From: a gamma proteobacterium symbiont of Taylorina sp.
Lineage (GTDB): Bacteria; Pseudomonadota; Gammaproteobacteria; GRL18
Assembly: GCA_025655455.1 (NCBI GenBank)
Contig: JAHXIV010000031.1
Span: forward strand, 1-64,000
Reading direction: 5' to 3'
DNA length: 64,000 nucleotides
The notes beneath the pieces were generated by a model that was given only the letters and a program-made list of their open reading frames with translations, was not told the origin of the DNA and ran no database searches. Shown here in pieces: positions 48,965 through 52,586 of the stretch (its first letter is position 1; each line of letters starts with the position of its first letter). Position numbers and translations under genes: made by a program.

Positions 48965-49041
48965 GCCTTCGTAGCTCAGCTGGATAGAGCAGCCCCCTCC
49001 TAAGGGGCAGGCCGGACGTTCGAATCGTCTCGAGGGCACCA
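48965..49041 (+). tRNA. tRNA-Arg (anticodon CCT)
   Basis: The full cloverleaf folds. The acceptor GCCTTCG pairs with CGAGGGC, with one weak T-G pair. The D arm is GCTC/GAGC, and the anticodon stem GCCCC/GGGGC encloses CTCCTAA, giving anticodon CCT for AGG. The T arm is GGACG/CGTCT with TTCGAAT. CCA is encoded at 49039-49041. A 42-codon gene with its own terminator follows. Confidence 0.97.
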
Positions 49042-49340: not shown

Positions 49341-49348
49341 AGTATTTT

Positions 49349-49465
49349 AATCTTTCACTGTAATTGTACAACTATCACTGGAAACACTCTCACCAATAAT
49401 ATTACCGTCAGCATCTAAAGCAAATAGACGAATTTCAGCAACAATACCTTTCTGATCTATTAAGT
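49349..49465 (-). pseudogene. C-terminal fragment of an unknown protein
   Basis: On the minus strand a 36-residue frame follows an in-frame TAG and includes Val-Ala-Glu-Ile-Arg-Leu-Phe-Ala-Leu-Asp-Ala-Asp-Gly-Asn. It then has Ser-Ser-Asp-Ser-Cys-Thr-Ile-Thr-Val-Lys-Asp before its stop near 49350. It looks like the end of a beta-rich protein (an Asp-Ala-Asp-Gly-Asn loop), with no start codon. It is likely a gene scrap in this scarred region. The identity of the parent gene is unknown. Confidence 0.4.
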
Positions 49466-49561
49466 GCTAAAGTCTGTATCATTTAGATTGTGTGAATGCA
49501 CGGATTTATTGAACAGTTACTTTAATTATTGCTAAGCGATTGATTTTTAAATAAAAGTAAG

Positions 49562-49622
49562 TGGTGCCCAGGGCCGGAATCGAACCGGCACGATCTTGCG
49601 ATCGAGGGATTTTAAGTCCCTT
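49562..49622 (-). pseudogene. 3' fragment of tRNA-Leu (UAA): probable attachment-site scar
   Basis: Reading the minus strand, the anticodon arm AGGGA-CTTAAAA-TCCCT (anticodon TAA), a class II variable arm CGATC-GCAA-GATCG, the T arm GCCGG-TTCGATT-CCGGC, the acceptor 3' strand CCTGGGC, A and CCA are all perfect. The 5' acceptor strand (should be GCCCAGG) and the D arm are absent; unrelated sequence precedes the anticodon arm. Integrative elements that recombine in tRNA genes leave exactly such 3' duplicates, so this marks one end of an insertion. The intact gene must be elsewhere. Confidence 0.88.
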
Positions 49623-49866
49623 GGAAATGGCTTAACTACTACCTTTCTATACAAGTCAATTGGTAACGGTGCTACCAATTGATGTTTTCAATAAAATTTA
49701 ACTACCGTTTTTCACGTGAGTCTGAAGAAATTTGATATTATCAATTTTAACCACTTGGATCAAATATTTAATCACTTACAAGACATCATAAACAAAGTTG
49801 GGTTATACTTGTAACTAATGAAAGAATAGTTAAAAAATCACATAATTGTCATTGATAGGTATCATT
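49623..49866. other. spacer between the tRNA-Leu fragment and the antitoxin gene
   Basis: No gene is evident. An inverted repeat near 49656-49684 pairs CAATTGGTA with TACCAATTG around ACGGTGC. The antitoxin gene's promoter region probably lies here, and the hairpin could be its operator. Otherwise it is AT-rich. Confidence 0.45.
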
Positions 49867-50121
49867 ATGAACAATACTATCGAAATACAGTGTCCATCTG
49901 AAGTTCTTATTAGTCTGCATGAAGATGCAGAAACATTTGCTGAACTGATGAAATTACAAACGGCTATTTATCTTTTTAAAGAACATAAAATTTCTTCTGG
50001 CACAGCAGCTAACTGGCTGAATATGGAACGTGCTAAATTTTTAAACACAGCAATGGAGGCTGGCGCTGTTCTCCTTGATAATAATGAAGATGACTATAGA
50101 AGAGAAACATCAATGCTATGA
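49867..50121 (+). CDS. UPF0175 family antitoxin
   Basis: From the ATG at 49867 (a TTG seven codons upstream is also open) the 84-residue protein is a UPF0175 member. It has Glu-Ile-Gln-Cys-Pro-Ser-Glu-Val, a long helix with Leu-Gln-Thr-Ala-Ile-Tyr-Leu-Phe-Lys-Glu, Lys-Ile-Ser-Ser-Gly-Thr-Ala-Ala-Asn-Trp-Leu and Met-Glu-Arg-Ala-Lys-Phe, and an acidic tail Asp-Asp-Tyr. These small helical proteins pair with DUF3368 PIN toxins. A stub of such a toxin starts four bases before its stop. It is an orphan antitoxin. Confidence 0.85.
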   Translation: MNNTIEIQCPSEVLISLHEDAETFAELMKLQTAIYLFKEHKISSGTAANWLNMERAKFLNTAMEAGAVLLDNNEDDYRRETSML

Positions 50122-50180
50122 TAGTTTTTTCTAACACTACTCCTTTAATTGAAGTGGTCAAGTTTTTTTGTACAACATAG
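50118..50180 (+). pseudogene. truncated DUF3368/PIN-type toxin start
   Basis: The ATG at 50118 overlaps the antitoxin stop. Its product starts Met-Ile-Val-Phe-Ser-Asn-Thr-Thr-Pro-Leu-Ile-Glu, the hallmark N-terminus of DUF3368 PIN-domain RNases (usual Ser-Asn-Thr-Thr-Pro-Leu-Ile). After about 15 residues it diverges and stops at TAG (50178-50180). The remainder of the nuclease, with its acidic active site, is not found in the 237 bases before the YgiQ gene. The toxin is therefore inactive. Confidence 0.75.
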
Positions 50181-50417
50181 TTAAGTGTAGTCTTATCCAC
50201 ATATCCATGGTTCAGCCCGATAGAGAGATCTCAAATCTATAGTGTATTATTCAATAAGCTAAAGTACTTCCATAATGATTTAGTAACAAAAAGCTATCAA
50301 ATTTTGCCCATAGTTTATCCAAAAAAGTCTATTTTTTCTCCCTTAATTTTTCCCTGAACTGCATGTTGACTAATTCTGCTACCTTCTTTGATATTTCTCT
50401 AAATCAACGCTCGATAT

Positions 50418-52586
50418 TCACTTCTGTGTTCTTTTTTTGTTTTGAAATTTCTTTTGTACTTTAGGGCGGTTAACAGGATGCCTTGGACTAGTTTTATGTT
50501 TTTCCTCTGCTGGCACCAGCTGTTTATCACCATCACCAATCAGATCACTTCGTCCCAACTCTCTCAACATCTCACGAATGATGGGCCAGTTTTTAGGATC
50601 ATGATAGCGTAGTAGAGCTTTGTGCAGGCGTCTGATCTTCTCACCTTTTGCAGTAAAGACTTTTTCTGATTTGTAACTGAGTTTTTTCAGAGGATTTCGT
50701 TCACTATGGTACATAGCCGTAGCAGTCGCCATTGGTGAGGGATAAAAATTTTGTACCTGATCAAGTCTGAAATTATTTTCTTTGAGCCATAAAGCAAGAT
50801 TAACCATTTCTTCTATCGTCGTACCAGGATGTGCAGCAATAAAATATGGGATTAAATATTGCTCTTTACCCGCTTCTTTAGAAAATTGTTCAAACATCTG
50901 CTTAAATTCATAATAGCTGTCAATATCAGGCTTCATCATCTTACTCAGAGTACCTTCTTCAGTATGCTCTGGTGCAATTTTTAAATACCCCCCCACATGA
51001 TGAGTCACTAACTCTTTAACATATTCAGGTGAACGTACAGCAAGATCATAGCGCAAACCTGAAGCAACAAAGATTTTTTTGATTCCGGGTAATTTTCTGG
51101 CACGTTGATATAAATGAGTTAAAGGCCCATGATCGGTATTCATGTGAGAACAAATTCTTGGATACACACAGGACAAACGCCGACAAACTGATTCAATTTC
51201 TTTGTCATCACAAGCCAGACGCCACATATTCGCTGTTGGCCCACCCAGGTCTGAAATATAACCTTTGAATTCAGGGACGTTATCCCTGATTTCCTCAATT
51301 TCACGAATGATAGAATCTTCTGAACGATTTTGAATCACTCGTCCTTCATGCTCAGTAATAGAGCAAAAAGTACACCCCCCAAAACAGCCGCGCATAATAT
51401 TAATAGAGAAACGAATCATCTCATAGGCTGGCATTTTTGCTTTTTGATAATCCAGATGCGGTAAGCGTGTATAAGGCAGTTCAAACAGCTCATCCAGTTC
51501 TTCTGTAGTCAGAGGAAATGGTGGTGGATTGAGCCAGACATCATTTCCACCATGTCTCTGTACTAAAGCTCTTGCATTGCCTGGATTGGTTTCCAGATGC
51601 AAAACACGTGAAGCATGAGCATACAGCACCTGATCATTTATGACCTTTTCATAAGAGGGTAAACGAATGACACTATGATTCCTGTCCAGAGACTTAATAA
51701 TTTGTCTAATAGGAATCGCTATTTCCTGTGGAGAATCACTGTCTGATTGAGCCTCAGAACCGGGTTTAGAACAAACATCCTGAGTCATCATTTTATAAGG
51801 ACTGACCACAGCATCCACTTTACCCGGGCGATCAACCCGACTTGAATCAATTTCCATCCAGCCTTTTTGCTGGTGTTTCACCATGTAGGCAGTGCCGCGA
51901 ATATTATCCAGATTTTCTATGGCCTCACCACGAGATAAACGATGAGCAATCTCGGTAATTTGCCGTTCACCATTACCAAAAACCAATAAATCCGCTTTGG
52001 AATCAAACAGTACAGAGCGTCTAACCTTATCCGACCAATAGTCATAGTGTGCTATTCGTCTCAAGCTTGCTTCAATGCCGCCAATTACAACGGGCACATC
52101 AGACCAGGCCTCCTTGCATCGTTGTGTGTATACTATAACCGCTCTATCGGGACGTTTACCGCCAATATCATCCGGAGTATAGGCATCGTCATGACGCAGT
52201 TTTCGATCTGCCGTATAACGATTGATCATAGAATCCATATTGCCGGCAGTAACACCAAAGAATAAATTTGGGCGACCCAAGATTTTAAAGGGTTCACAAC
52301 TTTGCCAGTCCGGTTGGTCAATAATACCCACTCTAAAACCTTGTGATTCCAGTAATCTGCCAATTAATGCCATACCGAAGCTGGGGTGATCCACATAGGC
52401 ATCTCCGCTGACCAGAATGACATCACAGGAATCCCAACCCAGATCCAGCATTTCATCATAGCTGTGGGGTAAATATTGTGCGATGCCATAACACTCCGCC
52501 CAATATTGTTCATAGGAAAAAATATTTTTTAAATGGCTTGCCCTTTTCTTTTGTTTTTTATTATCAGAACTCGTATTAGCACTCAT
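50418..52586 (-). CDS. YgiQ family radical SAM protein
   Basis: This 722-residue protein has the YgiQ N-terminal domain ([18 protein letters not shown]), Gly-Gly-Ile-Glu-Ala-Ser-Leu-Arg-Arg, and the radical SAM cluster motif Cys401-x3-Cys405-x2-Cys408 in Gly-Cys-Phe-Gly-Gly-Cys-Thr-Phe-Cys. Later Lys-Ile-Ala-Pro-Glu-His-Thr and a basic Lys/Pro-rich C-terminal tail follow. The reaction of YgiQ is not established. It lies 18 bases after the flavin reductase gene on the same strand. The length is typical. Confidence 0.93.

Follow-up and report, generated by a model that had tools for sequence, protein, structure and literature searches.

A 62-nt tRNA-Leu(UAA) fragment in a gammaproteobacterial symbiont is probably an attR-type integration scar

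How did the 3' half of a tRNA-Leu(UAA) gene come to stand alone between two blocks of conserved genes? The window (i.e. the whole 64,000-nt stretch analysed, positions 1-64,000 of contig JAHXIV010000031.1, C24 in our numbering) comes from a gamma proteobacterium symbiont of Taylorina sp. An earlier note on this DNA had described positions 49562-49622 as a perfect 3' half of tRNA-Leu(UAA) whose 5' side had been replaced by unrelated sequence during integration into the tRNA gene. These coordinates were right, with the match starting one base further 5', at 49623. Two features make up the stretch in question:

49562-49623, minus strand: the 3' 62 nt of tRNA-Leu(UAA), an orphan piece and probable attR-type scar (sequence; matches of 62/62 and 57/62).
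49624-49652, minus strand: a non-tRNA 5' extension, taken by ARAGORN into a 91-nt tRNA-Leu (ARAGORN, Rfam score and comparison with the gene of the same genome).

The reverse complement of 49562-49623, CAAGGGACTTAAAATCCCTCGATCGCAAGATCGTGCCGGTTCGATTCCGGCCCTGGGCACCA, was read directly and contains an anticodon stem-loop (UAA), a paired variable arm, a T arm and the 3' acceptor strand, ending in CCA. The anticodon loop is uninterrupted, as the earlier note had stated. Three congeners (G002, G003 and G005) have intact tRNA-Leu(UAA) genes whose 3' part is identical to the piece at 62/62 positions. No decay was seen in this 3' part. The match to the intact gene of its own genome covered 57/62 positions, with four differences in the variable arm and one in the acceptor. 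Chance is excluded as the source of the likeness to tRNA-Leu by E values of 9e-22 for the match within its own genome (contig C31) and 1.4e-29 for the best congener match. The listed matches to the scar region in plasmids (10 of 17 records listed) and in phages (4 records) were confined to the tRNA-Leu stretch.

The 5' side does not belong to a tRNA, in agreement with the earlier note. ARAGORN reports a 91-nt tRNA-Leu at 49562-49652, but the would-be 5' acceptor, GTATAGA, forms three Watson-Crick and two G-T pairs of seven (by eye), leaving the acceptor stem unclosed. The Rfam tRNA model gave the piece 23.9 bits against a cut-off of 29, i.e. below the threshold for a cloverleaf and for a functional tRNA-Leu. 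The piece was also absent from the 37 matches (E ≤ 0.001) of a whole-genome tRNA search in which 150 of 305 first-look candidates were scored. An Rfam scan of the window at the gathering threshold listed a tRNA-Pro as its sole hit; its silence carries no weight here, as it also missed a tRNA-Arg at 48965-49041 that was seen by ARAGORN and by the genome-wide search (61.8 bits). The stretch could in principle be a working RNA (a tRNA half, a split tRNA or a regulatory RNA), and the 3' half does fold well (z -2.3). This is extremely unlikely, given the tRNA score below the cut-off, the unpaired acceptor and the presence in the same genome of an intact gene for the same codon; the conservation is accounted for by descent from a tRNA gene. 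The stretch is confirmed as a genuine 3' part of tRNA-Leu(UAA) joined to a 5' side that is not tRNA.

In this genome (4.5 Mb, 104 contigs) one intact tRNA-Leu(UAA) was found, at C31:40801-40887, following a tRNA-Gly. An intact copy had been anticipated by the earlier note and does exist; the identity of its 3' end with the piece, also predicted, did not hold (57/62). An open reading frame starting 89 nt past the CCA of this gene (440 aa from the first possible start) carries PF00589 and the arm-binding domain Arm-DNA-bind_3, i.e. encodes a tyrosine integrase, and from there to the contig end the genes look phage- or satellite-like by eye. PF00589 gave 33 matches in the genome, including this one on C31 and one on C24. 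The latter, at C24:64154-64759, lies just beyond the end of the window and 14.5 kb from the scar, with conserved genes between. A second scar in the same genome (C36:31332-31360, equivalent to L066:5333-5361) consists of 29 nt of the tRNA-Leu 3' end and follows a HEPN gene and a helicase; none of the 33 PF00589 matches falls on C36. The right end of this second scar resembles that of a piece lying 2 kb from the intact tRNA-Leu of G018.

On integration at a tRNA gene, the copy that arrives with the element restores the gene, and the old 3' half of the host gene moves to the far end of the element. As the incoming copy replaces the host 3' half, a scar unlike the resident gene is expected after such a swap; a piece that matches its own gene at 57/62 positions and congeners at 62/62 thus fits a displaced host 3' end, with the resident gene now carrying another copy. 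Very probably, the piece is a tRNA-Leu(UAA) 3' end displaced from its gene, i.e. an attR-type integration scar, and the remainder of the element has since been removed or moved. Its 3' segment is identical or nearly so to intact genes through the CCA, and an intact copy with a nearby integrase is present elsewhere in the genome. A site-specific element would have recombined with tRNA-Leu(UAA) near the anticodon loop, supplying its own 3' half so that the gene stayed whole, while the original 3' half would have ended at its far end (attR). The rest would have been removed or moved in later events; the present junction joins a tRNA-Arg block to a ygiQ block and is flanked on one side by a 91-nt repeat. 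We infer the identity of the element, the order of these events and the tyrosine integrase as agent; the 62-nt identity and the intact copy with its integrase neighbour were observed directly. Counting against integration are the non-identity of the own gene, the unmatched 5' side and 3' flank of the scar, and the lack of an attached element.

The scar was searched for in 40 genomes (its own included), and longer matches were followed in its own genome, genus and family (G000-G023, n = 24, G000 being the genome of the window). Matches of about 30 nt were mostly left unfetched, such that pieces cut elsewhere are under-counted. The fetched loci comprised 26 partial and 16 intact rows. Two of the partial rows repeated places already covered (L063 and L062 overlap) and a third, L103, starts with its contig inside the gene and is probably an intact gene cut by the contig end; with these left out, 23 orphan rows were counted, window scar included, in at least 11 of the 24 genomes. 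Two of the intact rows, both at contig ends in G005, may represent one gene. As observed directly, most orphans are cut in the same arm: 20 of the 23 rows start at tRNA positions 26-33, in the anticodon arm (19/22 with the window scar set aside). The exceptions are two pieces starting at positions 57 and 59, both of right-end class D (see below), and the weak row L107:3878, starting at 39; L073:10631 is also a weak row. The intact gene with an integrase 89 nt past its CCA and this common point of cutting support the tRNA-targeting integration that the earlier note had proposed.

Swapped 3' ends predict a mismatch in the variable arm between orphan and intact gene, and at least one such orphan was present in all five genomes that could be compared (G000, G003, G005, G007 and G014); G018 has no comparable variable arm. 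In G005, four orphans stand in a row on one strand of contig C25, over 33 kb, downstream of an intact gene at the contig end, i.e. the several tRNA-end repeats that characterise an additive tRNA-linked island. The sequence past the last of these orphans is 85% identical over 400 nt to the sequence past the intact gene of G009, which fits an occupied and an empty site. Similarly, an orphan of G006 and the intact gene of G002 share 94.6% identity over 130 nt and then diverge. Viral contigs with the pattern (20 stretches) carried tRNA-Leu(UAA) genes or pieces in proviruses. The pieces in the relatives suggest more than one exchange of the tRNA-Leu(UAA) 3' end within the genus.

The scar is on C24 and the intact gene on C31, so that the scar does not lie next to the tRNA-Leu gene; its 5' side runs into a conserved gene block. 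The positional link to an element, on which the earlier note had made its reading depend, was not seen: within the window the scar has neither an element nor an integrase attached and lies at a junction between gene blocks. The surroundings contain the following features:

48965-49041, plus strand: an intact tRNA-Arg(CCT) (ARAGORN), at the edge of a block, presumably flgA-flgN-PilZ, whose order is kept in the relatives read.
49345-49448, minus strand: a gene fragment repeated at at least five other places in the genome (81-88% alike; C8, C10, C13, C37 and C41).
49442-49561, minus strand: the 3' flank of the scar (BLAST).
49656-49682, no strand assigned: an inverted repeat, perfect over 10 bp with a 7-nt spacer (shuffle count and hairpin).
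49867-50121, plus strand: a UPF0175 antitoxin gene (PF03683, E 1.2e-15).
50118-50149, plus strand: the beginning of a partner toxin gene that is interrupted by the repeat listed next (overlapping ATG and reading frame), presumably of the PIN/DUF3368 type.
50150-50240, no strand assigned: a 91-nt repeat, 100% identical over 90-91 nt at ends of C31, C61 and C71, 98-100% at both ends of C65, and 93% over 71 nt inside C60.
50418-52586, minus strand: a gene that we take to be YgiQ-like, at the edge of the other block (85-88% identity in relatives).

The 1.4 kb between tRNA-Arg and ygiQ thus hold the repeated gene fragment, the scar, the antitoxin gene, the toxin start and the 91-nt repeat, which fits the broken toxin and gene scraps that the earlier note had placed beside the piece. 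Two of the three copies of TACCAATTGA in the window lie at the inverted repeat, with 0.32 expected in the window and three or more in 2 of 100 shuffles; the hairpin has z -4.6, and either an integrase arm site or a terminator is possible. On the 3' side, BLAST matches anchored in the tRNA half extend up to 38 nt beyond the CCA. An apparent likeness of the post-CCA sequence to intact genes vanished once the tRNA half was left out: 300 nt of the 3' flank alone had no significant match (best E 0.01) among the flanks of 15 intact tRNA-Leu genes, which belong to other species or to the occupied gene of the same genome. On the 5' side, positions 49624-50149 matched nothing at E ≤ 0.01 in the loci compared, and the scar's own element was not found in this way. 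UPF0175 genes also lie near orphans in G005 and in G015 (the latter identified by likeness to the G005 copy); there they are on the CCA side, whereas here the gene is on the 5' side and points away. The two copies of the 91-nt repeat at the ends of C65 are in opposite orientation, and that contig carries helicase and AAA genes that appear defence-related by eye.

As compared to relatives, the gene order at this locus is altered, an observation made directly. One conserved gene (first open reading frame, by eye) comes after tRNA-Arg(CCT) in all eight relatives read, and its best match in the present genome is on C57 (46%). After ygiQ, five of eight relatives have a proS-like gene with its neighbour and three have other genes; here the best match to proS is on C41 (80%). 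The blocks flanking the scar are not adjacent in any relative read, and the scar looks, from its gene neighbourhood, to be at a rearranged junction, with a misjoin at the 91-nt repeat possible. An assembly artefact at this repeat, producing the adjacency of scar and ygiQ, has a modest but real chance of being correct, as the same 90-91 nt occur at the ends of C31, C61, C65 and C71 and the toxin gene stops at the repeat. Against it, the tRNA-Arg side, where there is no 91-nt repeat, is also unlike the relatives, with the usual neighbour on C57, and the rest of the toxin was not found at other contig ends, a weak test as the query also missed the toxin start in the window; a tblastn search with the toxin start had likewise given no significant match. 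Such an artefact is compatible with an attR-type scar, which may then still end an island on another contig.

A second tRNA-Leu(UAA) gene may instead have stood here and lost its 5' half by ordinary deletion or insertion of an IS, with no site-specific integration. The locus is rich in debris (the 91-nt repeat and the repeated gene fragment lie within 600 nt), ARAGORN still sees a tRNA-like 5' side, and the 3' flank matches no known tRNA-Leu flank. This origin is nonetheless improbable: ARAGORN found no tRNA-Leu beside tRNA-Arg(CCT) in any of the eight loci of relatives, the cut is in the anticodon arm as in 19 of the 22 other orphan rows, and the 3' part is undecayed. Another reading, which overlaps with the preferred one in that the piece is still a product of integration, is that it arrived as the attachment site of an element inserting at a place other than tRNA-Leu, e.g. 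at the neighbouring tRNA-Arg(CCT), 520 bp away. The scar does have the congener allele and not that of its own genome. The tRNA-Arg is intact, however, with no second copy of its 3' end among own-genome matches at E ≤ 1e-5 (which a short copy would escape) and no 3' copy with up to three mismatches in four own-genome loci tested, making this variant unlikely. A displaced 3' end of tRNA-Leu(UAA), left behind by integration, is thus retained as the preferred explanation.

Many of the orphan pieces have toxin-antitoxin or defence genes in their vicinity. On C25 of G005, the stretches between orphans hold a PRTase-CE/ORC-CDC6-like/CARF set with a methylase-like gene and transposase-like open reading frames (by eye), and also BrnTA, UPF0175 and a DUF3368 protein, an AEP-TOTE helicase, a 2OG-oxygenase, a PIN toxin and Fic. 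The row of tRNA-Leu pieces in L063 (G005:C25:52000-70834) bounds the CARF/PRTase-CE/ORC-CDC6 set, the AEP-TOTE helicase and toxin-antitoxin pairs. Ahead of the last orphan, the segment holds a mixture of genes over 14 kb and may not form a single cassette. Near orphans elsewhere, TacA-GNAT, AbiE, HEPN, Fic and a ParE-like gene (barely above the cut-off) were found; Wadjet JetC lies some kilobases from an orphan and HipA near an intact gene. Non-defence neighbours also occur: metabolic genes (glcDEF-like by eye) lie between pieces in G011:C269 and G003:C41, and in G015 the piece is followed by a gene for acetyl-CoA synthetase.

Right ends were grouped by eye into classes A (seven rows), B (four), C (three) and D (two, including the C36 piece of the same genome as the window); the window piece, again by eye, fits none of them. 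Class B right ends, at four loci (one in G005, two in G011 and one in G012), have roughly 100-125 nt in common before the tRNA half, with different cargo (BrnTA, AbiE, TacA-GNAT and one with none clear). A search with this stretch in the 24 genomes returned those four places (77-100%) and one weak 31-nt match. A PIN toxin gene often precedes class A ends. On the other side, one type of left end past the CCA was present at 5 of 17 matching places (two intact genes and three orphans). No PF00589 match fell on the orphan-bearing contigs of ten relatives among the 113 matches listed; most of these contigs are short, the recombinase search was for this family, and absence from a contig is not absence from the element.

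Three leads to an autonomous element or its integrase were discarded. The tandem arm motif CTACCAATNNNCTACCA had one match in each of 3 of 17 genomes, every one on a contig that also bears tRNA-Leu, as a gene or as a piece; PF00589 had no match on these three contigs. The motif AATTGGTAG is weak evidence because it also occurs within the D arm of the intact gene. A weak integrase match on G018:C103 seemed to lie by a tRNA-Leu piece, where ARAGORN finds a tRNA-Phe.

Fragments of tRNA genes that are attR sites of integrated elements and are mistaken for tRNA genes have been described (van der Gulik et al. 2023, PMC9897764). Like the fragments described there, the present piece copies part of a tRNA, is annotated as a tRNA by software and would have been made by integration into the gene; the example shown in that paper still flanks its element, whereas here the element is gone or elsewhere. 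Judged by sequence, the window scar belongs to this already published class of tRNA-derived integration remnants. In Actinomarinales (PMC7771536), Alteromonas (PMC4119200, where one site is a Leu-tRNA with a 52-nt repeat) and Methylophilaceae (PMC10872708), additive flexible genomic islands have been described whose successive cassettes are marked by tRNA repeats. Repeated tRNA ends mark cassettes beside a tRNA gene there as in the relatives studied here. As far as those descriptions go, the relatives differ in having cargo that is largely toxin-antitoxin and defence genes and one right end common to different cargos, and the window scar differs in not lying beside a tRNA gene. Integrons and CALINs (PMC11389934), as portrayed in that source, similarly consist of cassettes that share an end and have no integrase next to them; the common end here holds a tRNA-Leu half. 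In a literature search run without the genus name, no paper was recognised as treating the tRNA-Leu(UAA) site. What may go beyond known cases, on present sequence comparisons, is that one right end accompanies different cargos, with no integrase seen next to it, at four loci in three genomes.

At its furthest, this pattern raises the speculative and rather doubtful idea that the tRNA-Leu(UAA) gene of the genus serves as an attI-like capture site. Small toxin-antitoxin and defence cassettes that lack an integrase and have a common tRNA-Leu-half end would be inserted serially by an integrase acting in trans, with the 3' half of the gene replaced each time, and the scar in the window would be a cassette end left stranded. 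For annotation, the consequence is that ARAGORN counts a fragment of tRNA-Leu as a tRNA gene. For the biology of the genus, the pieces mark a site at which genes of toxin-antitoxin and defence systems accumulate and, if it is true that the cassettes lack an integrase and share one end, they would represent a cassette-capture system built on a tRNA gene.
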